From positions 1-20,291 of the IMG/VR virus record IMGVR_UViG_3300044858_005059: a stretch of DNA of 20,291 bases. One strand, 5' to 3'. This document shows positions 1,292-20,291 of this stretch, piece after piece. Numbering within the stretch: the stretch's first letter is position 1; every line of letters starts with the position of its first letter. The notes under the pieces are model-generated. The model searched no databases. It saw only the letters and a program-made list of their open reading frames with translations, and was not told the origin of the DNA. This DNA comes from a virus. The translations under genes and the position numbers were made by a program.

Positions 1292-1501
1292 ATGGAATTA
1301 GATGTAGAATTAGAAGAATTTTTAAAGAATAATAGAAATGTAGTTTTTGATAATTTAATTAAGAAATGCCAGAATGGTGATACTCAAGCTTTAAAGTTAT
1401 TATATAATGAAATTAAAGATTTATCAGCTAAAATTAAAAAAAGAAATACTAAATTAACAACTTCACAAATAGTTAAAAGTTATATTACTGGTAATGAATA
1501 A
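1292..1501 (+). CDS. Candidate small terminase subunit, very short
   Basis: This 69-residue, charged, helical protein is encoded directly before the large terminase and overlaps it by eight bases. Residues 19-41 contain DNLIKKCQNGDTQALKLLY, a pattern like the C-terminal part of several phage small terminase subunits, where a 'GD..ALKL' helix is common. A small terminase would recognise phage DNA and hand it to the large subunit for cutting and packaging. Mu gp27-type subunits are much longer and carry an N-terminal helix-turn-helix, which is not visible here. The gene could therefore be a reduced terminase subunit or an unrelated small protein; the call rests mainly on position and one motif. 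The upstream Shine-Dalgarno is weak (AAATAAGAAA). Confidence 0.45.
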   Translation: MELDVELEEFLKNNRNVVFDNLIKKCQNGDTQALKLLYNEIKDLSAKIKKRNTKLTTSQIVKSYITGNE

Positions 1502-3585: not shown

Positions 3586-3966
3586 ATGTCAAATGTTGTT
3601 TATCCATTCATTACAAATGAAAATATTGGAGCTAATGCTATTGTTACGCGCGTTAATGGAATCGAGCCACTATTATCTTTAGCTATTTCAAATACAGAAG
3701 AAATTACTTTAGTAGGCGTTAATGGAGATATATCAAATGTTGCAGGTGATGTTGCAGATATTACTATTGGTGGTATCGGCAAAGTTAAGCTTGCTGGTAC
3801 TGTTAAGTTTGGTGATTTAGTTACTTGTAATACTGCAGGATTAGGTGTTAAGGCATCACCAAATACTGTTGGATTAGTTCAGACTGTTGGTGTCGCTCTA
3901 ATGGGTGGTGTTTCAGGTGATATTGTAGATATTAACGTTGTGCCTTCTCGTTTAGAAAAAATTTAA
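3586..3966 (+). CDS. Capsid cement/decoration protein, DUF2190-like
   Basis: This 126-residue, glycine- and valine-rich, beta-type protein fits the DUF2190 group of capsid stabilising proteins, which sit on the outside of the shell. Typical features are the hydrophobic beta repeats GVNGDISNVAGDVADITIGGIGKVKLAG and a middle section (FGDLVTCNTAGLGVKASP) in which the protein is 'loaded' with reference values; the C-terminus contains VALMGGVSGDIVDINVVP. AGGAG lies just upstream of ATG 3586. It sits between scaffold/protease and major capsid gene, the usual place for a cement protein. No signal peptide or membrane segment is present. Confidence 0.82.
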   Translation: MSNVVYPFITNENIGANAIVTRVNGIEPLLSLAISNTEEITLVGVNGDISNVAGDVADITIGGIGKVKLAGTVKFGDLVTCNTAGLGVKASPNTVGLVQTVGVALMGGVSGDIVDINVVPSRLEKI

Positions 3967-3981
3967 TAGGAGTATAAATAT

Positions 3982-4902
3982 ATGTCAGCTACAGGAACCC
4001 CTTTTCAAGTAAGACCAGATCTAACTGCTATTTCTATTGCATTTAAAAATCAAAGATTGATTGCAGATAAAGTATTGCCTAAGGTACCAGTTAACTCTCG
4101 TTCATTTGAATATTCAGTAGACGATTACGGTGCACAGTTCACTATTCCAGATAGTTATGTTGGTAGAACTTCTCGAACTAATGATGTTTTTTCAAATACT
4201 ACAACTAGTACAGGCATTATTCAAGATTATGCGCTACAAAGAGTTGTTCCAGTTTACGATATTGAAACAACGGATATCGATATCTTAGGTAAGGCAACTG
4301 AACAAGTAAGTAATTTATTAGCATTAGATTATGAGAAAAGAGTAGCAGATATTGTATTTAATTCAAATAATTATGCAGGAACTACAGGTCTATCTTCAAC
4401 TACTTGTTGGGATAATGCTGCTAGTGATCCTATTAAAGCGATTAGTGATGCTCTAGATAGTTTAGTTATGCGCCCAAATGTGATGGTAATCGGAAGAGAA
4501 GCATTTTCAGCATTATCTAGGAATGCAAAGATAGTAGCAGCTGCTAATCGTAATAGTGGTGCTTATGGAATTGCCGAAGTTGGATTTTTACAGGAATTGT
4601 TTGGATTAGAAGAAATTTTAATTGGTGAAAGTTTTGTTAATGGATCAAAGAGAGGTAATACTACTTCTCTATCTCGCTGCTGGGGTGATAGTTGTGCGTT
4701 AATTTACAAAGATATGTTAATGGATGCAGATTATGTCACTTCATTTGGATTTACAGCTGAATTAGGAAGTCGTGAAGCCTCTCTATTTTTCGATTATAAT
4801 CAAGGTCGTAAGGGTAGCTATATTGTTCGTGTCGGCGAATCAGTACAAGAGGTAATTGCTAGTAATAAGTTAGGATATTTATTTACTAACTGTGTTGCCT
4901 AA
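3982..4902 (+). CDS. Major capsid protein
   Basis: The 306-residue protein is the shell subunit expected to have an HK97-like fold. It belongs to the capsid type seen in B3-like and related transposable siphophages. Recognisable blocks are the N-terminal LTAISIAFKNQRLIADKVLP with KVPVNSRSFEYSVDDYG, then DYEKRVADIVFNSNNY, a central DPIKAISDALDSLVMRPNVMVIG followed by NRNSG (central domain), and the C-terminal RVGESVQEVIASNKLGYLF. The gene has AGGAG upstream of ATG 3982 and is followed after two bases by the gp36-like gene. I see no separate N-terminal scaffold arm, in keeping with the separate scaffold/protease gene. Confidence is high from sequence pattern and context. Confidence 0.93.
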   Translation: MSATGTPFQVRPDLTAISIAFKNQRLIADKVLPKVPVNSRSFEYSVDDYGAQFTIPDSYVGRTSRTNDVFSNTTTSTGIIQDYALQRVVPVYDIETTDIDILGKATEQVSNLLALDYEKRVADIVFNSNNYAGTTGLSSTTCWDNAASDPIKAISDALDSLVMRPNVMVIGREAFSALSRNAKIVAAANRNSGAYGIAEVGFLQELFGLEEILIGESFVNGSKRGNTTSLSRCWGDSCALIYKDMLMDADYVTSFGFTAELGSREASLFFDYNQGRKGSYIVRVGESVQEVIASNKLGYLFTNCVA

Positions 4903-5401: not shown

Positions 5402-6139
5402 ATGTCAGAATTATATTATATTGGTTGTGGAAAAATTTATTGTAAGAAATATGGAACAGCCGAACCTTATACTTATATCGCTAACTCAGAAGCTTTAACT
5501 CTATCTATTACAGAGAGTGAGCAAGTTTTAAAAGATTACGATTCTTGTGGTGGTGGCAACGTTCAAAAGATTACTAGAATTGATAAAGTAGAAGTAAACT
5601 TCACATTTAGCGATTTACAGCCTAAGAATTTAGCTATGGCTGTTTTTGGAACTTATAGTGAGGTTAATGCAGCAACGATTTCAACTACGTCGACTTATAC
5701 AGTTTATAAAGATTCTTTAGTACCTCTAACTCATATTGATCCCGCTTCAGTAGTAATTACAGACGGTGCAACAACTACGTTTTCATCTACTTCAGATTAT
5801 TCGCTATCTGGTGCAGGTATTATCATTCCAGCAACTTCATCTATAGGCGATGGTAGCACTATTTCATTAACTAGTTATTCTCATCCAGCTTATTACGATA
5901 TTGAGCCGTTAACTGAGGGTAGTAACGAATATTCATTAATTTTTGATGGTGTTAACCTCGCAAATAGCCATAAAACTAGAGTAGTGACGCTTTATAAAGT
6001 AAGATTAGGAGCGCTTAAAGAATTAGCATTAAAGGGAGAGGATTATCAAAAACTCGCTCTAACTGGTGAAGTGCTCAAAGATACTACGATTACTGCATCT
6101 AATAAGTCTAAATATTTCAAAGATACTATGGTTGTGTAA
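5402..6139 (+). CDS. Major tail tube protein
   Basis: The 245-residue protein is placed between the head-joining protein and the tail chaperone, as expected for the tube subunit. It starts MSELYYIGCGKIYCKK and has the features of siphoviral tube proteins: a beta-rich N-terminal domain with YTYIANSEALTLSITESEQVLKDYDSCGGGNVQKITRIDKVEVNFTFSDLQPKNLAMAVFG in outline, and a C-terminal part (KTRVVTLYKVRLGALKELALKGEDY) that resembles the final strands of this family. The middle region (about 95-165), rich in serine and threonine, looks like an inserted immunoglobulin-like domain facing outwards. No sheath gene is next to it, consistent with a non-contractile tail. It has a usable AAGGAAT upstream and is followed by a hairpin terminator. 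Confidence 0.88.
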   Translation: MSELYYIGCGKIYCKKYGTAEPYTYIANSEALTLSITESEQVLKDYDSCGGGNVQKITRIDKVEVNFTFSDLQPKNLAMAVFGTYSEVNAATISTTSTYTVYKDSLVPLTHIDPASVVITDGATTTFSSTSDYSLSGAGIIIPATSSIGDGSTISLTSYSHPAYYDIEPLTEGSNEYSLIFDGVNLANSHKTRVVTLYKVRLGALKELALKGEDYQKLALTGEVLKDTTITASNKSKYFKDTMVV

Positions 6140-6503: not shown

Positions 6504-6616
6504 TCGAGAAAACAGCTCTTTTACTCGAATTAAAAGGATTTAATAATGTCTTTAACTGGACTTGGAGACGTTTTAATTTAGCTTTAAATTTAGTAAAGGA
6601 GAATAATGCAAAATAA
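6449..6616 (+). CDS. Tail chaperone -1 frameshift extension (T-type), fused to the upstream product
   Basis: The extension adds 55 residues to the first 83 residues of the chaperone, giving a fusion of about 138 residues. It reads YGDTTSNTRGSSELESRV followed by IEKTALLLELKGFNNVF and NWTWRRFNLALNLVKENNAK, a helix-rich and aromatic segment such as is seen at the C-termini of frameshifted chaperones. It overlaps the tape measure start at 6606 by 11 bases. In known phages the short and long chaperone products are both needed in an uneven ratio. The frame has no start codon of its own, so the only natural route to it is slipping. Confidence 0.75.
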   Translation, partial: YGDTTSNTRGSSELESRVIEKTALLLELKGFNNVFNWTWRRFNLALNLVKENNAK

Positions 6617-9344
6617 TGATATTACCATTAGAATAAATGCAAATTCTAGTAATGCAAGACGAGAAATTCAACTATTAAATAATTCGCTAACTAATTTAAA
6701 TAGGATATTAGCAGCATCAGCAGCCGCATCAACAAGAAGTTTAAGTGGTATTAGATTAAATAGAGGATTATTTACAGACTTTTCAAATTTAAATAATGCT
6801 ATAATAAGAAGTAATCAGTCAGCACAATTATTATTAAGAAATTTACGCGCTTTGTCGTCGACTGGTGGTCGCAGCATTCCTGTTGAATTTTCAGTATTAT
6901 TTTCACGAATGAATGGATGCATCAGATTATGCGGTGGAGGTGGCGGTGGTGGTGGAGGTGGTGGTGATAGAGGTTCTGGTGGTGGTGATCTTAGTAATTT
7001 CGCTGCAATAGCAGGTATCGGTGCATCTATTAGTACTGCTATATCAGCAGCATTTCAAAAAGCTTATGAAAATACGCTATCAGACAGATTATTAGTTACT
7101 GCAACAGGCGATAAGACCATAGCTTCGATAGAGAAAAAATATATTGAAGGTTTAGCAGATAAATACGGTCAAGATGTTAATACATTAAAATCACAATTCG
7201 CTAAGTTTCAAATAGGTGCGAGAGATACTGAATTACAAGGAATTGGTGGTAGAAAAGTATTTGAAGCTTTTATTAAGACAGGCATATCAGCAGGCTTAAC
7301 TAATGAAGAAATAAAACGAGTATTTACAGCTATTGGACAGATGATTTCTAAAGGTATAGTAAGTTCGGAAGAGTTAAAAAACCAATTAGCAGATTCGCTA
7401 CCGGGTACATTAAAAGCATCAGCAGATGCGCTAAATATCACAGTTCCAGAGCTAATGAAAAAATTAGAAAAAGGCGAAGTTGAGTCTATAAGCTTTTTAA
7501 AGAAATTAGCTTCAGTTTTAGATAAGAATTTCAATGTTGGATCTCAAGAAGCTAGTAAAGATAATATTTCAGATATTAACAGGTTTTTAAATAAATTTAA
7601 TCAGAATATAGCAATTCCAGTAGGCGAATTAGCTCTATCTGCAGCATCTAGTGCTTCAAAATTTGGTACATCTATTTTAGATTCGCCATCGTATACTTCA
7701 GGAATATTAACTTCATTAGGCTTCCAAGCTTTAATACCAGCGGTGATGAATATTTTAAATAAATTCACTCCAGGCGCTATACCAACTTCGTGGATGAGAG
7801 CTGGTCCTCTTGGCGCTATTGGAGCAGCTTCTCTAGGGACATTATACGCTACTAGTGATAAAAGAAGTGAAAATTTATATAATATTAAAGATGATGAAAC
7901 ATTTAAAAAAGAATTATTAACTAAAAAATTAGATAATTACGCTTTTATAGGTCAAGCATTAGCTACTGCTGCATCTATATTTGTTCCAGGTGGTTTATTA
8001 GCTAAGTTTTTATTTTCAACATTAGGTGGATTTATAGCAGGCAATATCGGCCGCGCTATTGGTGGTGAAACTCTCGATGAAAGTGATTTTCAGGAAGATA
8101 TTAAGAAAAGAGAAGAAATACAAGCTATTAGACGATTAGATGAAGATAAAACAATAGCTATTCAACGAGCTATACAAGTGAAAAGCTTCTATAAGAAAAT
8201 CGAAGATGCAGATTCAATGCTTCAAAAGATAAAAGAATCAGCTATCGAAAATAAAGCCGATAATAATAAAGAATTAGAGAAAACAAAAAATAAACTAATT
8301 CAAAGTAAGCAAGATTCAGATTTAGATTTAAGCGATAAAGAGCAAAAATTACGCTATAGAATTAGCAAAGATCGAGTTGTGACTAATGAAGAAGCCGATG
8401 AATACGCTCGTGAATTAGATGCAATTAAAAGAGATAGGATTCAAAAAGAAGAAGAGTTTATAATTAGTCTTAATGAGATAAATGCAAAAATTAAAGATAT
8501 CGGTTATTCAAAAACTGATAAAGCAGATATTAAGAAAGCTGAAAATATTAAAAAATTAGCTGAAGAATCATTAAGTAAATTTACTGAAGAAGATCTAATT
8601 AAATATAAGCGCGTTCAAGAAGTAGTAGACTCGATTAAATCTAGTGAATCCCTATTAGCTGATGAAAATTTCACCGATATTCAAAAAAGAGAATCTGTTG
8701 CTAATAGATTAAGCGCAGCAAGATCTGAGTTAGATAGTTTAAGCCAAGGTGAAGCAGAAAGACTGCGTCAAAGTACTCAAAATGAGAATTTATCTAATAT
8801 TGAAAGTAGTTTTAATAAGCTATCAGGCGATCAAGCAATTCTAAATAATAATTTAAATGAGATAGTGAATAAATCTGAAATTATCAGTAATAATTTAACT
8901 GAGCCTATTGTGATGGATATAAATCAAGATCAACTCAACCAGGCATTAGAAAAAAGTGATACGATAAGAAAAAATTTAGAAATTATAGTGAGAAATAGTG
9001 ATGCTGAAAGTGAGGGTACAACAGATAATAGGCAATTACGATTTGCTAAAGGTGGATTAGTACCAGGATTTGGTGGTGGTGATATAGTTTCAGCGCTATT
9101 AGAACCAGGCGAATTTGTAGTGAATAAGAATAGGGCAAGAATGTTTAAACCGCTATTATCAGCTATTAATACTGCGCCGTTAGAATCTATAAATGCAAGT
9201 AATGCAACTAGTAATCATCAATTAGTTAAATTAGATTTATCTATAAATAATGGTACTACGCTTTCAGTGCATACTAGGAAAGATTCGGTTAGAGACTGGT
9301 TAAATTCGAATAAAGAATATAGCAGAGGGAAAATTTATGTCTAG
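6606..9344 (+). CDS. Tail tape measure protein
   Basis: This 912-residue protein sets tail length and spans the tail lumen. Residues about 155-300 carry the standard tape measure domain (VFEAFIKTGISAGLTNEE, SKGIVSSEELKNQLADSLPG). Before it lies an eleven-glycine run at 110-120 with a second short GGG, probably a flexible linker. Hydrophobic stretches at about 370-400 and 440-480 could insert into a membrane during DNA ejection. From about 500 to 760 it is charged and coiled-coil-like. Residues about 816-839 have the GGLVPGFGGGD ... LLEPGEFVV motif found near the end of many tape measure proteins. The start ATG at 6606 has AAGGAG close upstream. The tail module is small to medium in size by protein length, consistent with a siphophage. 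Confidence 0.95.
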   Translation: MQNNDITIRINANSSNARREIQLLNNSLTNLNRILAASAAASTRSLSGIRLNRGLFTDFSNLNNAIIRSNQSAQLLLRNLRALSSTGGRSIPVEFSVLFSRMNGCIRLCGGGGGGGGGGGDRGSGGGDLSNFAAIAGIGASISTAISAAFQKAYENTLSDRLLVTATGDKTIASIEKKYIEGLADKYGQDVNTLKSQFAKFQIGARDTELQGIGGRKVFEAFIKTGISAGLTNEEIKRVFTAIGQMISKGIVSSEELKNQLADSLPGTLKASADALNITVPELMKKLEKGEVESISFLKKLASVLDKNFNVGSQEASKDNISDINRFLNKFNQNIAIPVGELALSAASSASKFGTSILDSPSYTSGILTSLGFQALIPAVMNILNKFTPGAIPTSWMRAGPLGAIGAASLGTLYATSDKRSENLYNIKDDETFKKELLTKKLDNYAFIGQALATAASIFVPGGLLAKFLFSTLGGFIAGNIGRAIGGETLDESDFQEDIKKREEIQAIRRLDEDKTIAIQRAIQVKSFYKKIEDADSMLQKIKESAIENKADNNKELEKTKNKLIQSKQDSDLDLSDKEQKLRYRISKDRVVTNEEADEYARELDAIKRDRIQKEEEFIISLNEINAKIKDIGYSKTDKADIKKAENIKKLAEESLSKFTEEDLIKYKRVQEVVDSIKSSESLLADENFTDIQKRESVANRLSAARSELDSLSQGEAERLRQSTQNENLSNIESSFNKLSGDQAILNNNLNEIVNKSEIISNNLTEPIVMDINQDQLNQALEKSDTIRKNLEIIVRNSDAESEGTTDNRQLRFAKGGLVPGFGGGDIVSALLEPGEFVVNKNRARMFKPLLSAINTAPLESINASNATSNHQLVKLDLSINNGTTLSVHTRKDSVRDWLNSNKEYSRGKIYV

Positions 9345-9708
9345 AACCTTAGGCAATATAACTTTGCCGTTATCAATAGATTGGTCAAATAGATATAATT
9401 GGACGCCTATAACCAGAACTATAGATAGAACAGTTAGCGGCGTTTTAATAGTATGGGATCAGTCGTTAACTAATGGAAAGCCTATTACATTATCTGGTAA
9501 TATCGATAGTGGCTGGTTTTCAACTGAACAAGTTAATCAATTAAAACAAATGGCTGCTAGCTTAGAATCTGTATATACATTTATATGGGATGATGAAACA
9601 TATCAAGTAGTTTTTGATTTTACAAATGGTCAGCCTATAACGATGCAAGCAGTATTAAGAGGCCATCCATACTGGTATGGCTCTATAAATTTATTACAGG
9701 TGGCATGA
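9337..9708 (+). CDS. Tail protein directly after the tape measure, distal-tail type
   Basis: This 123-residue beta-rich protein starts MSRTLGNITLPLSIDWSNRYNWTP, continues TVSGVLIVWDQSLTNGKPITLSG and ends with RGHPYWYGSINLLQVA. The pattern matches a small conserved tail-protein family often encoded right after the tape measure gene in Mu-like and B3/D3112-like phages. It probably caps or starts the tail tube near the tip, but that role is inferred from position. The start overlaps the tape measure stop by eight bases, with AGAGGG upstream. No cysteine or membrane segment is seen. Confidence 0.75.
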   Translation: MSRTLGNITLPLSIDWSNRYNWTPITRTIDRTVSGVLIVWDQSLTNGKPITLSGNIDSGWFSTEQVNQLKQMAASLESVYTFIWDDETYQVVFDFTNGQPITMQAVLRGHPYWYGSINLLQVA

Positions 9709-9712
9709 TCTA

Positions 9713-10687
9713 ATGACAATCATTTCAAGTGAAATTAAATTATATAAACCAACAAATAATAATGATTTTAGTTATAATGGCGGTAGAATTTCTTCAATAC
9801 CTATTACTAATTCAATATTTCCAAATGCACAAAACTCAGAGCGTATATCCGGTTCAATTAAATATAGAAAGATATTTTATAAAGTTGATAATGCAGATAA
9901 TTTAACTTTAGCTAATAGTAAATTTTTTATATTAACTAACACTGAAGGTGACGACGATATAACTGCTTTTGTAGGTGATTTCAGAGATACTCAAGCTAAT
10001 ATAGGAAATCCGCGATTATATGGATGCGCTAAATTAGCTAGTAATCTAAATCCCGGTAGTTCTACTATTACGGTTATTCAAGAAAACACTAACACATTAT
10101 TTGTTAATAATGATATTGCTATTTTAACAAATAAAACAAATTTAACCGATGAAGATGGCAATTATGAATTATTTTATATAAATAATGTAGTTAAAAACCA
10201 GAATACTGTTACTTTAACTATTGATAATGATACGAATACATTCGGCTATTTACAAAACGATAGATTAGCTTCAGTTATTGATTTAGGCGAGATAAAAACT
10301 GTTGCTAATAATTTAAATAATACATCTATTAACGGTGTTTTTAATATAGATGATTTAATTTTAAATAATATTGGTGCAATTGATCAAGATATTTCATTAG
10401 AATTTGTTTCACCTACTAGTTTTAATATATTTAGCGATTTATTAGGGTTATTAGGTACAGGGACGGTGTCGACAGATTTTTCAGTAGAGAATCCTAATTT
10501 TCCAGGTTATAACTATTTTGAGATTCCAGCTAGTTGCTTTAGTGGTAATTATTTAGCTTTAGATTTAGTTAGCTTTACTATTAGTCCAGCAGCTAAAGGT
10601 ATATGGTTAAAGAGAAATATTCCAGCTAATTGTGGGGTTAAAGAGAATAACACATTTATAACTGGTTTAATAGGAGAAAGTGATTGA
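9713..10687 (+). CDS. Tail tip structural protein, paralogue of the gene at 12667-13692
   Basis: The 324-residue protein is related to a family of tail proteins from transposable siphophages. It and the product of 12667-13692 share N-terminal SxIKxxK with GG, ERxxGSxKYRK, a middle SVID(V/L)G block, and a C-terminal IPAN(C/S) with ITG and GES at the end. The protein is rich in asparagine and serine, as expected for an extended surface protein. A good AGGTGG stands eight bases before ATG 9713. The end overlaps the next gene as TTGA. Duplication of this gene before and after two unrelated tip genes is odd and is reported as a finding. The exact role within the tip is unknown. Confidence 0.75.
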   Translation: MTIISSEIKLYKPTNNNDFSYNGGRISSIPITNSIFPNAQNSERISGSIKYRKIFYKVDNADNLTLANSKFFILTNTEGDDDITAFVGDFRDTQANIGNPRLYGCAKLASNLNPGSSTITVIQENTNTLFVNNDIAILTNKTNLTDEDGNYELFYINNVVKNQNTVTLTIDNDTNTFGYLQNDRLASVIDLGEIKTVANNLNNTSINGVFNIDDLILNNIGAIDQDISLEFVSPTSFNIFSDLLGLLGTGTVSTDFSVENPNFPGYNYFEIPASCFSGNYLALDLVSFTISPAAKGIWLKRNIPANCGVKENNTFITGLIGESD

Positions 10688-11634
10688 TTACTAGTGTTGT
10701 GTCAGCTCAAGAATTAACAGTGCGAGCACCAACTAAAAAAATATCGAATTTTAAATTAGCTATCGATAGGGATTATGAGAATATACCTTGTAAAGTAGAT
10801 AAGGGTGAAATTTCAGGTGATCAAAAGAGTTGGGAGCCGCCAACTGAAAAATTAAAAGTATTGGAAAAAGGAAAATTTCAAGTTAAAGTTTATTGCTCTT
10901 CAGATAGCGTTATGGGTGGATTAATAGTGCTAGTTGATGGTCTTACGGAGTGCTCTAGAGTAGATTCAAGATTAGAGGAAATTACAGAAACGATTGAATT
11001 TAGTGGAGATAGTAACAGATCAGTGTCTTATGCTTTCGGTGAACAACCGCTCGAAATATCGATAGAGGGAGCGACAATATTCTATAATGATAGTGGTGTT
11101 ATCGTTGAACAGCCATACTGGGATTCTACTGTTAAAAGATTCAGGTCTACTGGTAAAATATATGGAAAATTATTAGTAAAATATAATTGTAATACAGAAA
11201 TTTATTCAGTTGAATATGGAAACGGGTCAGAAATATTATCTGAAACAGCTTTTCAACGAATTAAAGATGTATGGTCATCTGAAGATCCAAAAGAAAATGT
11301 AATGTATCCACCTGTAATAGTAATAGCGAAAAATAGTAGTTTTTATGCCGCTATTGAAGAAGAAAGATTGTTTTCGCCGCACACTCTCTCTCCTAGAGCG
11401 ATAAGAAGACTTGAATTAAATAGCGATGATGAGAAAAAATATTATATCAAGTATAAAGCATGGTTTGAAGAGAATCACACTTCAGATAGCGAGGATTATG
11501 CCGTTATTATCGGAACTAGAGAGTATACTGAAGTTGATGAAAAGACAGGTAAAAAGACAACAAGAACAGTTAAATACGACCATATTTCTGAAGATGATAT
11601 AATAGCAGATTACTTAACAATAGATGAATTATAA
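10684..11634 (+). CDS. Putative tail tip protein, unknown family
   Basis: This 316-residue protein starts at TTG 10684, with AGGAG at 10672-10676 seven bases before it, and overlaps the previous stop as TTGA. I do not recognise the family. The protein is acidic and beta-rich, with an N-terminal domain around SNFKLAIDRDYENIPCKVDK, a middle strand-rich section, and a highly charged C-terminus with EYTEVDEKTGKKTTRTVKYD. There is no signal peptide, membrane segment or coiled coil. The place among tip genes, and its length, suggest a structural part of the tail tip. Its stop overlaps the next ATG (TAATG), so the two are probably made together. Confidence 0.55.
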   Translation: MITSVVSAQELTVRAPTKKISNFKLAIDRDYENIPCKVDKGEISGDQKSWEPPTEKLKVLEKGKFQVKVYCSSDSVMGGLIVLVDGLTECSRVDSRLEEITETIEFSGDSNRSVSYAFGEQPLEISIEGATIFYNDSGVIVEQPYWDSTVKRFRSTGKIYGKLLVKYNCNTEIYSVEYGNGSEILSETAFQRIKDVWSSEDPKENVMYPPVIVIAKNSSFYAAIEEERLFSPHTLSPRAIRRLELNSDDEKKYYIKYKAWFEENHTSDSEDYAVIIGTREYTEVDEKTGKKTTRTVKYDHISEDDIIADYLTIDEL

Positions 11635-12656
11635 TGATGACAATAACCGCGCCGTTAGACACTTATATCAAAAAAGTACCTCGTAGAGAAGGTGAATATC
11701 TAGTATTTAGATTTATGTCGCATGTCTATTCAGCAATTCATAGACCTGAATTATATCCAGGTTCACCACCACTAATGAATCCATATATTAGATATGCTTC
11801 TATTATTAGACCTATGGTAATATTCGAGTTATCTAAATCAAAATGCTTAATACCTATAAGAAAATTTAATTTAAAAAATGTTAATAATGTATCTGAATTA
11901 GATGGCTATTATACTCTTATAGATAACTTAATACCTTGGATAAATACAAATCAAGATTATGTATTATTCAACTTAACAGCAGAAGACTACGCAACTTATC
12001 CGACATTAGCTAATACTAATACTTATGCGAATTATCATGGAATTTACGAGCAAGAAGTTAATAATAAAATAATTAAATATAGATATTTTGCAAATAATAA
12101 AGCAATTGGAAACGATTTAAATTTTTGGAATGAGACTTTCAGAATAGATCGTTGGTATGAATATCCGATTAACACATTACCAGAATATCAAGAAAAATAT
12201 CCAGATAGCTATTATCCGCCTTCAGTTATAGATGAACAGCATAAAGCCACTTGGACAGATATAGCAAATAAGATGAAAAATATGTTTATTCATAATCGTT
12301 GTCACTTAATTAAAACTAAATTAAATGAAAATGGTAATTTAGCAGCTATAATAGGAAGCGGCTGGAATACTACAACTCAACAGGCTAAAATTGAAGTGAT
12401 GGATAGTCAACGATCTTGGAATGAGCAAGAGATATTATCTAGGGGTCGACTTAATGCAGAACAAATAGATAATTATTATATGATTGCTAAAGATATAGCA
12501 ACTCAGCAAATAATTAAAGCAGGTTTATATTTCGACGAAGATAGCAGCTATATACGCGCATCTTCAAGCACTCCTACTGGTGTTTATAATGGTGCTAAAC
12601 CAGTGCCGACGAATTTATATCACGGCGATCCTTGGATAGATAATAATTTAATTTAG
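11634..12656 (+). CDS. Hypothetical virion protein of the tail tip block
   Basis: This 340-residue protein is not assigned to a family. It is rich in aromatic residues, asparagine and proline, with clusters such as YPGSPPLMNPYIRYASIIRP near residues 41-60 and PDSYYPPSVIDEQH near the middle. A long amphipathic section with SRGRLNAEQIDNYYMIAKDI and TQQIIKAGLYFDE lies near the C-terminus, which ends in KPVPTNLYHGDPWID. No signal peptide or membrane helix is present. The start overlaps the previous stop (TAATG) without a clear Shine-Dalgarno, so it is probably translated with its upstream neighbour, and a second ATG follows directly at 11637. Only the context supports a structural role. Confidence 0.55.
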   Translation: MMTITAPLDTYIKKVPRREGEYLVFRFMSHVYSAIHRPELYPGSPPLMNPYIRYASIIRPMVIFELSKSKCLIPIRKFNLKNVNNVSELDGYYTLIDNLIPWINTNQDYVLFNLTAEDYATYPTLANTNTYANYHGIYEQEVNNKIIKYRYFANNKAIGNDLNFWNETFRIDRWYEYPINTLPEYQEKYPDSYYPPSVIDEQHKATWTDIANKMKNMFIHNRCHLIKTKLNENGNLAAIIGSGWNTTTQQAKIEVMDSQRSWNEQEILSRGRLNAEQIDNYYMIAKDIATQQIIKAGLYFDEDSSYIRASSSTPTGVYNGAKPVPTNLYHGDPWIDNNLI

Positions 12657-12666
12657 GAGTATTTTA

Positions 12667-13692
12667 ATGCCGATTTCAAATAGTGATATTAAATGGTTTA
12701 AGAGTGAGCTTATAAGTGATACTAGCGCCGCTCAAAACGGTGGCTATATGAGTAATAATGAGATTATTTCAAATACTAAGAATAATGTTTGGCCCGATGT
12801 TACTCAAGCAGAGAGATTAGCAGGTTCAACTAAATATAGAAAAAATTTTATAAAGATAAATTCTGATCCGTCTATTGATTTATTAAATACAAAAATATTT
12901 ATCGATGCACCTTCAATAGGTGATGATTTTTTAGTATTGCAGTATGATAGTAATGTAGTAACCGCTCAAGTTAATGATCAAACAGATTTAACAGGATTTC
13001 GTCATTATGGTATTGGTGCGCTAAAGACTAGTGCTAGCATCGGTGGGACAACGATTACAGTTACGGTTGAAAATAGTAATGCTGTTGCTCTATCTCCATT
13101 TGATGATGATGATTTATTATGGATTAGTAATCAGGCAAGTGTCGCTGATGATGGAGATTTCGAATATATTACAGCCGATACTGTAACTTATAGTGGTAGT
13201 GATGCGATTATTACGTTGACTAGTGGATTAGCAAATGATTGGACTGTTGGTGATACACCTATTAAAGTGTCTTCAGTAATAGATGTTGGAACGGTTAAAG
13301 CGAGCTATGAAGAGTGCTTTGTTACATCAACTGCAGGTGTTTTCGATCATGCGAATGGAATAGTGCTTAATGGAACAGGCGCTATCGAGCAATTATGGGC
13401 TTTAGTATTTACTAGTGCAACTGCTTTTAATTTAAGTGGAACAACATTAGGTAATAATATAGCTACTGGCAGCATTAGTACAGATTATACTTATACAAAT
13501 ACAGCTTTTAATAAGCCTTATTTTAAATTATTAGCTAGTGCATTTACAGGAACTTTTGCTATTAATGATGTTATTATTTTCACTACGCATCCAGCTTCAG
13601 TGCCTTACTGGGAAAAAAGAATAATTCCAGCTAATTCAAATAGTATAGCTAATACAGGTTCTAGAGTCGCTATTACAGGCGAGAGTGCATAA
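12667..13692 (+). CDS. Tail tip structural protein, paralogue of the gene at 9713-10687
   Basis: The 341-residue protein begins MPISNSDIKWFKSELISD and includes AQNGGYMSNNEII, QAERLAGSTKYRKNF, a middle VSSVIDVGTVK block and a C-terminal PYWEKRIIPANSNSIANTG with ITGESA at the end. These match the gene at 9713-10687, showing that both came from a duplication and have since diverged. Of the two, this copy looks more like the usual family members of B3-type phages. AGGAG precedes ATG 12667. The end overlaps the first fibre gene as TAATG, giving a direct translational link to it. The protein probably forms part of the tip on which the fibres are mounted; this is inferred. Confidence 0.8.
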   Translation: MPISNSDIKWFKSELISDTSAAQNGGYMSNNEIISNTKNNVWPDVTQAERLAGSTKYRKNFIKINSDPSIDLLNTKIFIDAPSIGDDFLVLQYDSNVVTAQVNDQTDLTGFRHYGIGALKTSASIGGTTITVTVENSNAVALSPFDDDDLLWISNQASVADDGDFEYITADTVTYSGSDAIITLTSGLANDWTVGDTPIKVSSVIDVGTVKASYEECFVTSTAGVFDHANGIVLNGTGAIEQLWALVFTSATAFNLSGTTLGNNIATGSISTDYTYTNTAFNKPYFKLLASAFTGTFAINDVIIFTTHPASVPYWEKRIIPANSNSIANTGSRVAITGESA

Positions 13693-14603
13693 TGACGGTT
13701 ACAACACGAATTTATTATTCGACTGACAGTAGTGCACCAGTATTAAGCGGAACAACCGGTTCTTTAATTACGCTATTAGATGCAGTATTAGTAAACGGAT
13801 ATGGAAGCAGGCAAGCAGCCGGTTGGACTAAGCCTTATAGCGATGCAGGTGCTTATAAAGCAGTGTTTAGGCAAGGTGGTGGCAATCAGAAATATTTAAG
13901 AATAAGAGATGATGGTGTTTTGCCAAATGTTAGGCATGCTGATTGCAGATTTTTTAAAACTATGAGCGATGTTGATACTGGAACCGGTCAATTCCCGTCA
14001 ACTTCATTAACTAATCATAATATTAGTAAGAGTTATACAGCAGATTCAACAGCTAGACCTTGGATTATTATTGCTACTGACCGCTCTTTCTATATTTGGG
14101 TTCAACTAAATACTGCAAATACAGATATTTTATTTTTTTTAGGTGATATTACAAATATTTACGAGCGATGCAAATTAACTATTGCGTGTTGTAGTATTTA
14201 TAATAATACTACACCAGTTGGTACTAATAGCTTTTTAACTGAATTAAGTAATGGATTTACTCCAGATCAAACATTTGGATATTCTTATGATGAATTTTAT
14301 AAAACATCTATTTATATAAATAAATTTGGAAATTATAATTATAGTAAAGGGGCAACTTGTTTTGGTGGTGCAGGTCAGACATATCCTAATCCAGGCGATA
14401 GCAAATTACATATGGGTAGAATAGGCGTTCAAACTGCTAATGATGGATTAGCAGGTTATTTACCTGGATTATGGAATCCTTATCATTTAAAGCCATTAGC
14501 TCACGGAGATACGTTTTCAGCTATTGATAAGCAATTCATAGTGCTTAACTGCGAAGCTGGAGCAGGACAGTGTTTTATTGAATTATCAAATACGTGGTAT
14601 TAG
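13692..14603 (+). CDS. Tail fibre or adhesin, first of a tandem pair
   Basis: The 303-residue protein starts MTVTTRIYYSTDSSAPVLSG and belongs to a conserved tail-protein family of Mu-like siphophages. Regions shared with its neighbour are the N-terminal part (about residues 1-75), a short MSDVDTGTGQFP block, the RPWIIIATDRSFYIWV block, and the C-terminal PGLWNPYHLKPL and QCFIELSNTWY. The parts in between differ more and include the variable regions expected of a receptor-binding protein. The start overlaps the preceding stop (TAATG). I infer a role in host recognition from its place and pattern. Confidence 0.75.
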   Translation: MTVTTRIYYSTDSSAPVLSGTTGSLITLLDAVLVNGYGSRQAAGWTKPYSDAGAYKAVFRQGGGNQKYLRIRDDGVLPNVRHADCRFFKTMSDVDTGTGQFPSTSLTNHNISKSYTADSTARPWIIIATDRSFYIWVQLNTANTDILFFLGDITNIYERCKLTIACCSIYNNTTPVGTNSFLTELSNGFTPDQTFGYSYDEFYKTSIYINKFGNYNYSKGATCFGGAGQTYPNPGDSKLHMGRIGVQTANDGLAGYLPGLWNPYHLKPLAHGDTFSAIDKQFIVLNCEAGAGQCFIELSNTWY

Positions 14604-14767
14604 GAGAATTTTATGACGGTTACAACACGAATTTATTATTCGACTGACGATAGTGCACCAGTATTAAGCGGAACAGCCGGTTCTTTAATTACGCTATTAG
14701 ATGCAGTATTAGTAAACGGATATGGAAGCAGGCAAGCAGCCGGTTGGACTAAGCCTTATAGCGATGC
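13692..14767 (+). repeat. Near-identical direct repeat between two fibre genes
   Basis: Bases 13692-13846 and 14613-14767 match at all but three of 155 positions. The spacing between copies is 921 bp. Further identical blocks follow, such as 13958-13990 with 14888-14920 (33 bases), and a segment around 14041-14099 repeats with one visible mismatch in the second gene. The pattern of near-identical blocks between diverged blocks points to duplication followed by gene conversion or selection on the variable parts. Confidence 0.9.
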
Positions 14768-15560
14768 TGGAACTTATAAAGCAGTATATCGTCAAGGTGG
14801 TGGAAATCAACGATATTTAAGAATACTCGATGATGCCGCATCTTTAACAGCGTTAACTGGAAAAGCAGCAGACGCTCGATGTTATCTAACTATGAGCGAT
14901 GTTGATACTGGAACCGGTCAGTTTCCAACTGGAGCATTATCTGGTTATACAACTTATTGCGCTAAGAGTTCTACAGCAGATTCAACAGTTAGACCTTGGA
15001 TTATTATTGCTACTGACCGCTCTTTCTATATTTGGATTGATACTAATAGCTCTAGTTACAGATCATTACAATTTTTTGGTGATATTATTAGTATAAATCC
15101 TAGCGATACTTATAATACATATTGGGGATTTGCAGATGGAAATACTGGTTCACCAAATGGTTCTCAATCAGCTTTAACAGTATTAGATTCAGGATATACA
15201 CCAGCAGCAGCATTTGGATTAATTGCAAATTCGATCGATGGAACTACAGGACCAGCTTTTGTTAGTAAATTTGGAAATTATAATTATAGTAAGCAAGCAG
15301 CTGCATTAGGTAGTGCAGGTCAGATATATCCTAATCCAGCCGATAATTGTTTACATATGGGTAGAGTATTTATTCAAACTACAGCCGATGGTATTAGAGG
15401 TAGAATACCTGGATTATGGAATCCTTATCATTTAAAGCCATTAGTTCACAGAATGATTTTTTCAGGTAATGGTGCATTATCAAATAGGCAATTTATTGCT
15501 TTAGACTGCGAAGGTGGATCAGGACAGTGCTTTATCGAATTATCAAATACGTGGTATTAG
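14613..15560 (+). CDS. Tail fibre or adhesin, second of the tandem pair
   Basis: This 315-residue protein is the closest relative of the gene just before it. It starts MTVTTRIYYSTDDSAPVLSG and has the same RPWIIIATDRSFYIWI and QCFIELSNTWY blocks. The first 155 bases differ from the first copy at only three positions, while the central regions have diverged. It has its own AGGAG upstream of ATG 14613, so it can be made independently. It carries several extra residues compared with the first copy (for example in the LTALTGKAADAR region). Both proteins are probably structural parts of the tip that touch the host; whether they form mixed complexes cannot be seen. Confidence 0.75.
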   Translation: MTVTTRIYYSTDDSAPVLSGTAGSLITLLDAVLVNGYGSRQAAGWTKPYSDAGTYKAVYRQGGGNQRYLRILDDAASLTALTGKAADARCYLTMSDVDTGTGQFPTGALSGYTTYCAKSSTADSTVRPWIIIATDRSFYIWIDTNSSSYRSLQFFGDIISINPSDTYNTYWGFADGNTGSPNGSQSALTVLDSGYTPAAAFGLIANSIDGTTGPAFVSKFGNYNYSKQAAALGSAGQIYPNPADNCLHMGRVFIQTTADGIRGRIPGLWNPYHLKPLVHRMIFSGNGALSNRQFIALDCEGGSGQCFIELSNTWY

Positions 15561-15563
15561 AAT

Positions 15564-15926
15564 ATGGCAGATTTAGGAACAATTTCAGTTGCAGTAATAG
15601 AAGACAATTATTTATTTAGTTTTCAGCCAAAATTAAAAGTAGTGGATAGTTTTGATTTTTTAGAGAGTAATACTATAAAATTTGATGAATTTCAAGAAAC
15701 CAAGCAGTTAAGTGGTCTTGTAAAGGTCAACAACGCAAATTCTGCTAGAATAGTACGAGTACACGATCGAAATACAGGCTTTGTCGTCGCTAATATCACA
15801 TCAGCAGAAGATGGAACATTTAATTTAAATAATTATGACGATATTACAAAATATTATATCGTTGCACTACCATTATTAGAAGATGATGCTAATGCTGTAA
15901 TTGTTGATAGAATAACAGGAGGCTAA
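15564..15926 (+). CDS. Small tail protein with carboxypeptidase-regulatory-like (beta-sandwich) domain
   Basis: The 120-residue protein has a C-terminal section with SGLVKVNNANSARIVRVHD, then TGFVVANITSAEDGTFNLNN and YYIVALPLL ... NAVIVDRITGG. This is the pattern of a small CarboxypepD-regulatory-like beta-sandwich that is common in phage tail proteins. The N-terminal 50 residues have a different, phenylalanine-rich character and may attach it to the tip. There is no clear Shine-Dalgarno before ATG 15564, only three bases after the previous stop, so coupling is likely. Beta-sandwich domains of this type are often surface-exposed adhesive or stabilising modules; the role here is inferred. Confidence 0.7.
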   Translation: MADLGTISVAVIEDNYLFSFQPKLKVVDSFDFLESNTIKFDEFQETKQLSGLVKVNNANSARIVRVHDRNTGFVVANITSAEDGTFNLNNYDDITKYYIVALPLLEDDANAVIVDRITGG

Positions 15927-15927
15927 T

Positions 15928-16725
15928 ATGCCTTATAATCCATCTATTGGTACTGATATTGAATTATTCATTTCATCTAGTGATTATACACCTGCTATTG
16001 GTACTGCTATTGAATTATTTATTGGTGGTAATGTTTTATTAAATAAATCGAATAAAGAAAATTATAGTATATCTATATCTAAAAGTAATCTTAATAAATT
16101 CGATATTATCACTACTTCTGCTAATAAATCTAGTATTCGTGAGAAATTCAGTATATCTATTTCTAAATCTAATAGCGAAATTTATAATATAATAAATCTT
16201 GCCGTTAAATCTAATCTTAATGTTTTTGATATTATATCTACAATAGCTAATAAATCTAGTATTCGTGAGAAATTTAATATATCTGTATCTAAATCTAATA
16301 GCGAAAGTTATAGCGTACTAACACCTGCCGTTAAATCTAATCTTAATAAATTCGATATTTTAATTACATTTCCTAATAAAGCAAGTTTAAAGCATAAGTT
16401 TTCTATAGTAATATCGCAATCTAAAAAGAATAAATTTAATTTAGATAAAGAAATAATCGGTAAGAGCATTCAAGAGAAATTTAATTATTTTGATTTAAAT
16501 CGGTTTTCAAATGCATTATTTAATAATATTTCTTATGACGTATTAGATGGAGTTGTAATAAATAAATCAACTAATTTTAAGTGTAATTTAAATGAGTCTA
16601 TCGAATTATCAAGCTCTTTTATTCACCATATATTAGATAACGATATTATACAGAATTATAATAGCTTTAAATACGCTATTAAATCAATAGGGATTAGATT
16701 TATTATAGATGAAAGCGATTTATAA
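15928..16725 (+). CDS. Internally repetitive tail protein
   Basis: The 265-residue protein has two repeat systems. At the N-terminus SIGTDIELFISS and AIGTAIELFIGG are two copies (17-residue spacing) of a motif related to the 'PPAGDAVALTL' repeats of phage tip proteins. Then come repeats of a 42-residue unit, starting NKSSIREKFSISISKSN and containing a KSNLNKFDI block. The first unit is shortened to 27 residues, the second and third are full length, and a diverged fourth begins NKASLKHKFSI. The strands alternate with serine/asparagine/lysine turns, as in a beta-helix or stacked fibre, but that is inference. The gene has a strong AGGAGG upstream of ATG 15928. Confidence 0.65.
   Translation: MPYNPSIGTDIELFISSSDYTPAIGTAIELFIGGNVLLNKSNKENYSISISKSNLNKFDIITTSANKSSIREKFSISISKSNSEIYNIINLAVKSNLNVFDIISTIANKSSIREKFNISVSKSNSESYSVLTPAVKSNLNKFDILITFPNKASLKHKFSIVISQSKKNKFNLDKEIIGKSIQEKFNYFDLNRFSNALFNNISYDVLDGVVINKSTNFKCNLNESIELSSSFIHHILDNDIIQNYNSFKYAIKSIGIRFIIDESDL
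16042..16374 (+). repeat. 126-bp in-frame DNA repeats inside the tail gene at 15928-16725
   Basis: Two full 126-bp units (16123-16248 and 16249-16374) both start AATAAATCTAGTATTCGTGA. A shortened unit of 81 bp comes before (16042-16122) and a diverged one begins at 16375. Since 126 and 81 are multiples of three, gain or loss of units keeps the reading frame. A separate 51-bp spaced repeat around CTATTGGTACTG (15944 and 15995) lies at the start of the same gene. Confidence 0.85.
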
Positions 16726-18195
16726 ATGAGAAGTAATGTTTATGTAACAAAGGCAGGACGCACTATTCAAATGATCGATATTATCATTCAGACGGATATC
16801 GATATGTACGCTTGGAAGTTTTCAGGTAGATTAACTTCTTTTGATGATTATTTTTCTTTAGAAATAGAAGATAGAATAATTTTAACTGTTTACGGAACTA
16901 GCTATAATTTAGTTATTGATAGTTTAGAATTTTCAAAAGATAATATTGAAGCACCTATATTAAATATGACCGCTATATCTCCTTCGATATATTATCACGA
17001 TTTATCATCAAAAGTATATTCAGGCGATATTGTTTCGCTATCTAATAATTATAGTCAAAATTCTAAATATAATTCAGCTAGTGCTATTTGTAATTATTTT
17101 ATAAATAATTTATCTTGGGGTATTACGAGCTGGAATATTCCTGCTGGTGCAATATCTGGAGAAGAGATGTCGCCGTTAGATATCGTCAAAAGAATAACTT
17201 CAGCTATTGGTGCTTCGATTATTTGTGATCCAAGCGGAAACCTCGCCGTTAGATATAAAAGATCAAATTATTCTATTACCCTTTCAGTCGATAGAGAGAT
17301 TGAAGCTATAAGTATAACTAAAAATATCAGGCCAACAAAATATAGCAGTATTAAAGTTACTCGAGAGGTCCCTGTTAATGATAATAAAATAAATATAATA
17401 ACTAGAACATCTATTAATAGCAGTGATAATGAAGCTTATAAACCAGCAGTAAATCTTCATTTAGATACTCGTGAAAATGGATTAAATTCTTCAGTTGAGA
17501 ATTCCTTTGAATATGGAGATAGCGCATACTTTCTTCTAGAATGGGAAAATTGTAGTGTAGATTATTATTGTGATTTCGGCGATATATCCAGTCAAGGGTA
17601 TACTACTTGGCAAACTACAGAATATATTCAAATTAACGATTATAAAGGTCAGCTATCTTATATTTGTGAAAATATTATTGATATTTCAACAGGTTCAGGC
17701 AGCTCTAGTTTTAATTATAATTTAATAAATGGAAATAAAGGAATTTCAGTAGATTTTCAATATGGATTTATTAAAATAAGTTATAATGTACGCTCTTTAG
17801 TTTTAAAATGGTCTTGTCCTATTCCTTCAGGTATTCAAGACTCGATTAAATGTTATATTTATGCGATTGGACGAGCTACGTTACCGAAAGATATCGATAG
17901 TAATGAAGATTTGACAGAATTTATGAATATTGGTGAGCAAGGCGCTAGGACTCTTAATGTAGTTGATAATCTGTTAACGACAAATAATGTTATTAACGCT
18001 AGATTTGAACAAGAGAAATTAGATTACGAGAATACGCAGATTATAAATTTAACGTGCACTTATTTACCAAATGTTGCTATTTCAACGAAGATATCCTTCG
18101 ATTATGAAGGTAAATTATTTACTGGTTACGTACGCTCTATTAGGCATACTATCGATTATACAAAGGTATTAACGCATTTGGAGTTGTTTACATGA
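16726..18195 (+). CDS. Baseplate-hub-like tail tip protein
   Basis: The 489-residue protein has features of the central hub family of siphophage tips: an N-terminal beta domain with DRIILTVYGTSYNLVIDSLEF (about 49-69), then a domain with ITSWNIPAGAISG ... SPLDIVKRITSAIGASIICD and PSGNLAVRYKR (about 133-178). It ends with ISFDYEGKLFTGYVRSIRHT and a final strand. Proteins with this pattern form the hub at the end of the tail tube, through which DNA leaves. Length fits the family. There is no Shine-Dalgarno worth noting; ATG 16726 lies directly after the preceding TAA. The end overlaps the portal gene as ATGA. The hub call is supported by motif resemblance and context, but not proven. Confidence 0.78.
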   Translation: MRSNVYVTKAGRTIQMIDIIIQTDIDMYAWKFSGRLTSFDDYFSLEIEDRIILTVYGTSYNLVIDSLEFSKDNIEAPILNMTAISPSIYYHDLSSKVYSGDIVSLSNNYSQNSKYNSASAICNYFINNLSWGITSWNIPAGAISGEEMSPLDIVKRITSAIGASIICDPSGNLAVRYKRSNYSITLSVDREIEAISITKNIRPTKYSSIKVTREVPVNDNKINIITRTSINSSDNEAYKPAVNLHLDTRENGLNSSVENSFEYGDSAYFLLEWENCSVDYYCDFGDISSQGYTTWQTTEYIQINDYKGQLSYICENIIDISTGSGSSSFNYNLINGNKGISVDFQYGFIKISYNVRSLVLKWSCPIPSGIQDSIKCYIYAIGRATLPKDIDSNEDLTEFMNIGEQGARTLNVVDNLLTTNNVINARFEQEKLDYENTQIINLTCTYLPNVAISTKISFDYEGKLFTGYVRSIRHTIDYTKVLTHLELFT

Positions 18196-19328
18196 GATTA
18201 GTAGAAAAGATAAAATCTTTATTTAAAGAAGAAACTAAAGATCCTCAAAATTCAAGATTATTTGGTTTTGTTACTCCATCTATTAAAACAGATCAAACTA
18301 CGCTAATGGACCGCTATGAATCGCTATTAGATGATTCACAGGTGACTTCTACCTTTCAACAGCGAAGATTAGCTCTAACTATGACTAATACTATTATTAA
18401 ACCAACTAATAATGATGAAAAATCTGCAGATTTAGTAAAAAAAATAATAGACAAATTAGAATTCGATTCAATTATCGATAAGATGTCTTACGCTATATTC
18501 TTCGGTTATTCAATAGGCGAATTAATGTTCGAAGTTGAAGATAATATGATCTTATTATCAGATATTAAAGTGAGAAGGCCTAGGCGTTTTGCTTTCGATA
18601 TTGATGATTATTTGTATTTACGTGGTGTTAATAATGATTCTAAAGTTAAATTAGATAAATCTAAATTTTGGATTTTGAAATATGGCGGATTTTCAAATGA
18701 TGAAGTTTATGGTCGAGGTCTCGCGCAAACACTGCAATATCCAGTATTATTAAAAAGACAAGCGCTCGATGCATGGCATACTTTTTTGCAGAAATACTCG
18801 ATCCCGCCGTTAATAGGATATCTTCCACCTGGTTCAGATACAGACGTTTATAATAAATTATTAGAAATAGTAACTAATTTTCAATCAGCCAATGGATTAG
18901 TATTACCAGATAATTTACGAGTAGAAATGCTCGAGCCAAGCAGAAATGGTAGTCCTAATTTCGAATCTTTCATAAATATTTGTGATCAATCTATTTCAAA
19001 AATAGTATTATCTCAGACAATGACAACAGATAATGGCAGTTCTCAATCTCAAGCAACAGTGCATCAAAATGTTAAAGATGAAATAGTCAAAGCCGATAGT
19101 AAAATTATAGCGAATAGTTTTAAAAAACAAGTATTAGATAAAATAGTATATTTGAATTATCCTGATGGTAGTGCACCAATTATCGAATTTGAGAGTGTTG
19201 ATAATGAAAGCTTATTAAATCGCTCTATTAGAGATAAGAATATTTCAGAAGCATTTAATGTTAGTTTATCTATAGAAGATATAAATAGGATATATGGTGG
19301 ATTTTGGAATGTTAACAATTCAATTTAA
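18192..19328 (+). CDS. Portal protein, Mu gp29-like (DUF935)
   Basis: The portal forms the ring at one vertex of the head through which the terminase pumps DNA. The 378-residue sequence shows DUF935 hallmarks: RLALTMTNTIIKP at 59-71, FFGYSIGELMFEV at 103-115, YGRGLAQTLQYPVLLKRQALDAW at about 173-195 with KYSIPPLIGYLPPG after it, and IVLSQTMTTDNGSSQSQATVH at 271-291. It is shorter than the usual family length of about 500 residues, mainly through a short C-terminus. It is very unusual that it follows the whole tail module instead of standing next to the terminase. The 4-base ATGA overlap with the hub gene argues that this order is genuine and that the portal is translated from the same message. 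Confidence 0.92.
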   Translation: MRLVEKIKSLFKEETKDPQNSRLFGFVTPSIKTDQTTLMDRYESLLDDSQVTSTFQQRRLALTMTNTIIKPTNNDEKSADLVKKIIDKLEFDSIIDKMSYAIFFGYSIGELMFEVEDNMILLSDIKVRRPRRFAFDIDDYLYLRGVNNDSKVKLDKSKFWILKYGGFSNDEVYGRGLAQTLQYPVLLKRQALDAWHTFLQKYSIPPLIGYLPPGSDTDVYNKLLEIVTNFQSANGLVLPDNLRVEMLEPSRNGSPNFESFINICDQSISKIVLSQTMTTDNGSSQSQATVHQNVKDEIVKADSKIIANSFKKQVLDKIVYLNYPDGSAPIIEFESVDNESLLNRSIRDKNISEAFNVSLSIEDINRIYGGFWNVNNSI

Positions 19329-19635
19329 TAGAATTAGGATAAATTTGCCCGCGCTAGATATGAAAAGTGCAGGTGAAAAGTTATTAAGTAATATTAAGTA
19401 TAGATTTAATAACGGAATATCAGCAAATGGAATAAGATATGTTAATAGAAAGAAATCTGGAAAAGTGCTATTTGATACTAGCCGATTATATAATTCATTT
19501 AAATTACAATACACGCTAAATTCAGCTATTATATCTAATGTCGCACCTTATGCGCGCTATGTTGTTAATAAGATGAATTTTATGAGTTATAATAATCAAG
19601 ATATTTCAGATATTAAGAATATTATTATTAGGTAA
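19309..19635 (+). CDS. Mu gpG-like virion morphogenesis protein (Phage_tail_S type)
   Basis: The 108-residue protein has the family pattern: GEKLLSNIKYRFNNGISANG (22-41), KVLFDTSRLYNSF (52-64) and NVAPYARY (77-84). Such proteins act at the head-tail joint or finish the tail. The longer ATG at 19294 is in frame, but ATG 19309 is preferred because GGTGG at 19296-19300 lies eight bases upstream. The start overlaps the end of the portal gene by 20 bases, so portal and gpG-like genes act as one pair. The C-terminus is shorter than that of many relatives and lacks the usual final RPFLG-type stretch, which here reads MNFMSYNNQDISD. Confidence 0.82.
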   Translation: MLTIQFNRIRINLPALDMKSAGEKLLSNIKYRFNNGISANGIRYVNRKKSGKVLFDTSRLYNSFKLQYTLNSAIISNVAPYARYVVNKMNFMSYNNQDISDIKNIIIR

Positions 19636-19664
19636 AAAATGGGAGTACCTATCATAGTACTCCC
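19636..19664 (-). terminator. Intrinsic terminator of the minus-strand HNH gene
   Basis: GGGAGTAC at 19641-19648 pairs perfectly with GTACTCCC at 19657-19664 around an eight-base loop. On the minus strand the stem is followed by six T (A-run at 19634-19639). It starts eight bases after the HNH stop. On the plus strand no T-run follows the stem, so its action on the structural operon is uncertain, though the stem lies directly after the gpG-like stop. Confidence 0.75.
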
Positions 19665-19672
19665 GATAATAA

Positions 19673-20137
19673 TTACGACAAATCATCTATATAAGCAAAT
19701 TCACCATGTACCTCTTTACGTAATTTATTAGCAATAATACGAGCTTCTAATAGAGTTTTAGCGTATTTAGTATATTTTTTTCTATCTTTACAAACTTGAA
19801 TTTGATAATTTCCATTAAAATGCCAGATATTCTTATAGCCGATATTATTATAATTAGATGCAGCTTTATTACAGCAATTCTGTGAGCGAGTACAACTTCT
19901 TAAATTTTCAATGCGATTATTAATTCTATTATTATCGATGTGGTCTATGAATTCAGGTAGGTAATTATTGAAGTATAGGAATATAATGCGGTGTAAAAGA
20001 TGTTTCTTACCTTTAATATAGCATTTGTAATAGCCATTACTACTATCGTAAGAGCCTATTAACTCTTTACCTTGCCAATATAACGAGCCATCTTTATAGC
20101 TATAATTTTTGTGTAAATATTGATATAATTCTTCCAT
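19673..20137 (-). CDS. HNH endonuclease with AP2-like DNA-binding domain, homing type
   Basis: This 154-residue minus-strand protein is a typical free-standing phage homing endonuclease. Residues 46-91 hold the HNH core: HLLHRIIF, then IDHIDNNRINNRIENLR with the metal/catalytic histidine H66, N78, and SQNCCNK with N87. Residues about 97-148 (NNIGYKNIWHFNGNYQIQV, ARIIANKLRKEVHGEFAY) fit an AP2/ERF-like DNA-binding fold, as seen in many HNH homing enzymes. ATG at 20137 is preferred over an in-frame TTG at 20167, which would add KKRKNRK-type residues without a usable Shine-Dalgarno. It is the only gene on this strand and runs toward the structural genes, ending in its own terminator. It is a selfish element likely inserted next to the portal/gpG-like pair. 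Confidence 0.88.
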   Translation of the reverse strand: MEELYQYLHKNYSYKDGSLYWQGKELIGSYDSSNGYYKCYIKGKKHLLHRIIFLYFNNYLPEFIDHIDNNRINNRIENLRSCTRSQNCCNKAASNYNNIGYKNIWHFNGNYQIQVCKDRKKYTKYAKTLLEARIIANKLRKEVHGEFAYIDDLS

Positions 20138-20291
20138 TTTTCTGTTCTTTCTTTTCTTATTTAACAAGATATAGAGGGTATGCTATTTAAGATACTATAA
20201 TTAAATCTATAAATATTCACACTCTCATCATAATTTATTTTTTCGATATTAACTAAATTAAGAAACCCAGTTACATTATTAAAGGTTTTTT
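20138..20291. other. AT-rich non-coding end of the window
   Basis: No gene is visible. The stretch would contain the promoter of the minus-strand HNH gene, but no clear boxes stand out. A short inverted pairing near the very end (AAACC with GGTTT) runs into a T-run at the edge; it is too weak and cut off to be called a terminator. Confidence 0.4.

Follow-up and report, generated by a model that had tools for sequence, protein, structure and literature searches.

Gene content of the window

The window, that is, the whole stretch of DNA analysed here, is the complete linear IMG/VR record IMGVR_UViG_3300044858_005059 (20,291 bp, ~30% GC). Its plus strand carries a row of terminase, head and tail genes that ends with a portal gene and a gpG-like gene, while an HNH endonuclease gene lies on the minus strand after this row. 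The annotated features are as follows:

1292–1501, plus strand: terS, terminase small subunit (phrog_24579, E 5e-9)
1494–2753, plus strand: terL, terminase large subunit (PF03237, E 3e-22; PF17289, E 5e-12; phrog_2, E 4e-44)
2735–3574, plus strand: head maturation protease/scaffold, abutting terL, with a probable TTG start at 2750 (phrog_976, E 1.5e-70)
3586–3966, plus strand: head decoration/scaffold-like protein (phrog_673, E 1.6e-11)
3982–4902, plus strand: major capsid protein (phrog_1005, E 5e-73; 42–43% identity with phage B3)
4905–5387, plus strand: gp36-like head-tail adaptor (PF07030, E 4e-9)
5402–6139, plus strand: major tail protein (phrog_807, E 4e-55)
6606–9344, plus strand: tape measure protein (PF20155, E 9e-15)
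9337–16725, plus strand: distal tail genes, including phrog_4408, phrog_24675 and two phrog_9600-type copies (profile matches)
16726–18195, plus strand: hub-like tail protein, the final tail gene (phrog_24698, E 1e-11; phrog_6079 tail, E 9e-6)
18192–19328, plus strand: Mu gp29-type portal of 378 aa, without a C-terminal tail (PF06074, E 2.2e-75)
19294–19635, plus strand: gpG/Neck1-like gene, with a possible start at 19309 (weak profile matches and a structural match)
19641–19664, minus strand: terminator-like hairpin following the HNH gene, in leftward orientation
19673–20167, minus strand: HNH_3 homing-type endonuclease (PF13392, E 1e-12; phrog_99, E 1e-43)

Homologues of terL, protease, decoration, capsid and gp36 are present in the order of a B3/Mu-type head module. 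The window departs from the B3/Mu-type layout, in which the portal gene comes straight after terL and is followed by MuF and the protease gene, in that the portal gene lies 15.4 kb off and MuF was not found. Instead, the terminase leads straight into the protease/scaffold gene, as an earlier reading of the DNA made without database searches (hereafter, the sequence-only reading) had proposed, and the phrog_976 match bears this out. The joint between the two genes reads ATTTGAAG, which makes a TTG start overlapping the TGA stop likely (a probable TTGA overlap), and a G-rich site lies upstream.

The genes of the tail module also occur in non-Mu siphophages, and the homologue of the hub-like protein in Vibrio phage 1.215.A sits in the same tail cluster. 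Several repeats were observed in this region: the two phrog_9600-type genes are tandem copies (13692–15560) with 92% identity over their first 223 nt and later divergence, a second paralogous pair occupies 9713–10687 and 12667–13692, and the ORF at 15928–16725 contains three 126-nt tandem repeats (16080–16457). At the left end of the record (1–245), a 64-bp tandem repeat of 2.1 copies precedes two 40-nt repeats that contain GCGC-AGAA-GCGC-like hairpins.

No DDE transposase gene (TnpA) or TnpB gene was found within this 20-kb record, which is possibly a fragment. Scans of viral contigs with the portal, terL and hub proteins returned no near relatives; one candidate, L002, was rejected, its match consisting of 17 residues aligned by chance.

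A short portal, a gpG-like protein and no detectable MuF

Both ORFs at the end of the row lie where the sequence-only reading had placed them, with the portal assignment much the firmer of the two. Specifically, the portal matches PF06074 (Portal_Mu) with 254.5 bits against a curated cut-off of 23.9, over positions 2–335 of 336, and PHROG 113 (portal) with E 4e-75; on these profile matches, its identity is certain. The portal ORF is the single PF06074 match in the whole record. A predicted model of the portal (mean pLDDT 75.8) has as its top Foldseek matches the portals of JBD30 (8rka, E 1e-15) and Mu (9khx, E 2e-13).

The portal ORF stops at residue 378, nine residues past the end of the PF06074 match. 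Nearly all complete relatives have portals of ~480 aa or more, those of the portal-led sample described below being at least 478 aa, and they carry a C-terminal tail of roughly 100 residues that the window portal is without. Some Helicobacter prophage portals are likewise short (365 and 405 aa). The solved portal chains of Mu and JBD30 comprise 369–405 residues, compared with 512–526 in the sequence, and the tail absent from the window portal is therefore probably not part of the resolved ring. Consistent with this, the ring-forming part of the window portal seems intact in the predicted model. Portal ORFs of other kinds were also seen in the survey: L233 (9818–13195) has an 1126-aa portal ORF with an inorganic-pyrophosphatase-like domain (PF18823) after the portal domain, and L190 (3132–7275) has two portal ORFs, of 497 and 352 aa, on one contig.

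The gpG/Neck1 assignment of the last ORF of the row is weaker than that of the portal but consistent. The ORF matches phrog_26 ('tail completion or Neck1') with E 2e-4, PF05069 with E 0.02 (15.2 bits, under the cut-off of 24.3), and a gpG model built here with 16 bits, with the conserved positions (GE, RF, L and YA) in alignment. Furthermore, its C-terminal end, MNFMSYNNQDISDI, lies where the family motif RPFLGLSxxD would be expected. In a structure comparison, the best, though tentative, match for its predicted model is a chain of the SaPI1 neck structure, with Z 7.4 across 87 residues against 4.5 for the following row; plain Foldseek with the same model returned nothing significant.

Nearly all relatives have MuF between the portal and gpG or the protease, and no PF04233 match to MuF was found in the record. 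MuF could lie outside the record or have diverged past detection. As judged from the ORFs and profiles, the undetected MuF and the portal lacking its tail are two features that the sequence-only reading had missed. Among the relatives themselves, MuF-containing ORFs of 879–1457 aa were observed in L206, L208, L210 and L250, compared with the usual 400–500 aa.

Gene order in related head modules

To compare gene order, we collected a capsid-led set of 102 capsid-related loci taken from viral contigs and genomes, together with several annotated phages, and an extra set of 29 portal regions out of 369 genomes of one bacterial class, and annotated the loci using profiles derived from the window together with reference phages. 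Among the 93 loci with both genes detected (full portal), 92 have the portal gene at most 1.5 kb downstream of terL on the same strand, a count in which the loci are not independent (65 capsid-set loci fall to 39 once near-identical portals are removed) and in which similarity-based sampling with 10-kb flanks favours compact layouts. The sole exception is the window, where, as measured from the ORF ends, 15,394 bp separate the two genes, matching the earlier estimate of about 15.4 kb. Likewise, the protease gene directly follows terL in only one of 79 loci, again the window; the usual order in relatives is terL-portal-MuF-(gpG)-protease. This comparison upholds the earlier claims that the portal gene normally follows the terminase and that portal and gpG are displaced together here.

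A portal-led sample, independent of the capsid, added 80 more loci, among which 65 are terL-adjacent by model, six have too little upstream sequence, and nine were inspected further. In six of these nine, the ORF directly upstream is large and of likely terminase type but was missed by the profile (for L206, the upstream terminase was confirmed by Pfam), and L233 has terL upstream of the portal with a wider gap. L234/L235 is truly odd and is the only such lineage added by the portal-led sample: in L235 (IMGVR_UViG_3300046778_000250, 9812–18097), the order is portal-MuF-gpG-terS-terL, with NUMOD4/HNH genes in between, and the block is divergent from protease and capsid. Departure from terL-portal adjacency thus exists but is rare.

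Other arrangements of strand were also present in the sampled set. Divergent blocks like those of Burkholderia phage KS10 occur in L014, L018, L035, L072, L090 and L096, and in L045 and L050 the portal is on the strand opposite the capsid. For Helicobacter prophages, L118 is KS10-like and L117 is scrambled. An orphan portal from the genome census, L169, was not taken as a displaced portal; it has only chromosomal housekeeping genes around it and is probably what remains of a prophage.

Origin of the arrangement and comparison with known systems

The window probably derives from an uncultivated siphophage with a Mu/B3-type head, in which the portal-MuF-gpG block was relocated behind the tail genes, with loss of MuF and of the portal tail. 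We infer that the block was excised from its place between terL and the protease gene and re-inserted behind the final tail gene, where it would have remained in the late operon. The portal C-terminal tail and MuF would have been lost during or after the move, leaving the portal core overlapping gpG. A single deletion spanning the portal tail and MuF as far as the gpG start would yield exactly the observed overlap; by joining the portal core to gpG, it could explain both the short portal and the absent MuF. Late transcription would then yield terminase and head proteins first and the portal and neck protein last, and the portal ring, to judge from its family, would be incorporated into the head in the way usual for phages of this type. 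The sequence offers no hint of a different assembly mechanism, and, because what assembly requires is the protein, wherever its gene lies, the window portal should by analogy still work as the DNA entry ring. The HNH gene, a possible agent of rearrangement in the sequence-only reading, flanks the block and has a terminator-like hairpin of its own; HNH genes beside the blocks of the window and of L235 amount to two cases, and we draw no association from them.

It is unlikely that the native portal-MuF-gpG block was instead deleted and a second, foreign portal acquired behind the tail genes. Such a replacement would fit the differing nearest relatives of the two proteins (L106, L031 and L004 for terL; L027, L015 and L019 for the portal), but many phages whose two genes are adjacent are placed differently in the terL and portal trees, and L019, L041, L075 and L094, which belong to the terL clade of the window, carry portals of its broad portal group. 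With conflict this broad extending to adjacent genes, exchange between them is routine, and the tree is no guide to whether the window portal was moved or acquired. The branch of the window portal is, furthermore, too long to place.

Somewhat less probable still is an assembly chimera, in which the tail operon was joined to the portal fragment of another phage or a portal segment was dropped between terL and the protease gene. The window is a single metagenomic record, and no relative has the same joint, as a chimera would allow; however, two independent joints, terL-protease with its probable TTGA overlap and hub-portal, would both have to land in coupled overlaps. Hub and portal overlap by four bases (ATGA) with GGAG upstream; portal and gpG overlap by 20–35 bp, depending on the choice of ATG, so both overlaps described in the sequence-only reading are present. 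The codon usage of hub, portal and gpG falls inside the spread of the other genes, the GC content matches, and no 14-mer of positions 18091–18300 recurs in the window, leaving no repeat at the joint. Codon usage, joint repeats and joint structure of the record thus gave no chimera signal, which is good though indirect evidence, and the coupled overlaps, matching codon usage and repeat-free joint are consistent with the earlier proposal of a functional operon and no assembly accident.

A genome that is circularly permuted, or closed at 20 kb so that 19635 runs on into position 1, is very improbable: both ends are intergenic and the left end begins in a tandem repeat, but the ends have no common 15-mer and no end repeat, no replication, lysis or integration gene was identified among the scanned genes of the record, and the circle would read portal-gpG-HNH-terS-terL, with the portal upstream of terS and still not in the usual order, so that the permuted map once suggested for this DNA is not supported.

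Adjacency of terL and portal is near universal in the Mu/B3 head type, and the exception tests the limits of the gene-order constraint. The short portal with MuF missing is a natural test of the roles of the portal tail and MuF, and automated annotation that locates the head module by adjacency would miss the window portal. More tentatively, the window may represent a stable lineage in which terminase and portal are parted, MuF and the portal tail have been shed, and a minimal portal is expressed last in a 19-kb late operon. If this were true, MuF and the portal tail would be dispensable in this head type, and head genes would not need to remain grouped.

Among known systems, the Mu-like Pseudomonas siphophages B3 and JBD30 share the same head gene families with the window, and the JBD30 portal has the same fold, but B3 has the order terL-portal-MuF-gpG-protease, with a portal of ~490 aa and MuF kept. 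L235 shares with the window a portal that does not follow terL, as well as HNH-type genes next to the genes of its block; it differs in its portal-MuF-gpG-terS-terL order, divergent from protease and capsid, and in keeping both MuF and a full-length portal. The large cyanophages with DUF935 portals, S-TIM5 and Nodularia kac65v151, also have a portal that is not straight after terL, but their genomes are 147–172 kb and their portals remote (22–24% identity). In T7-like phages, portal and terminase are apart by design.

In Burkholderia phage KS10, the capsid genes are split into two modules ~11 kb apart (PMC2628397). As in the window, the head genes occupy two separated modules and include homologous protease, decoration, capsid, portal and terminase genes; in KS10, however, terS-terL-portal-MuF stay together on the opposite strand, whereas in the window terL stays with the head operon and portal-gpG ends the tail operon. 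The KS10-type split is thus absent from the window, where terL and portal are apart on the same strand. In the TG1 group of Leptospira transposable prophages, a TerS-TerL-Portal block is separated (PMC8705779), but terminase and portal stay together there and are parted in the window. A literature search for displaced portals with all terms combined returned no paper. The window arrangement is a real, rare rearrangement, yet it varies on a pattern already described, since related phages are known to have this gene set split; what is new is that the head operon retains terL and the tail operon ends in portal-gpG, with MuF undetected and a portal of 378 aa.
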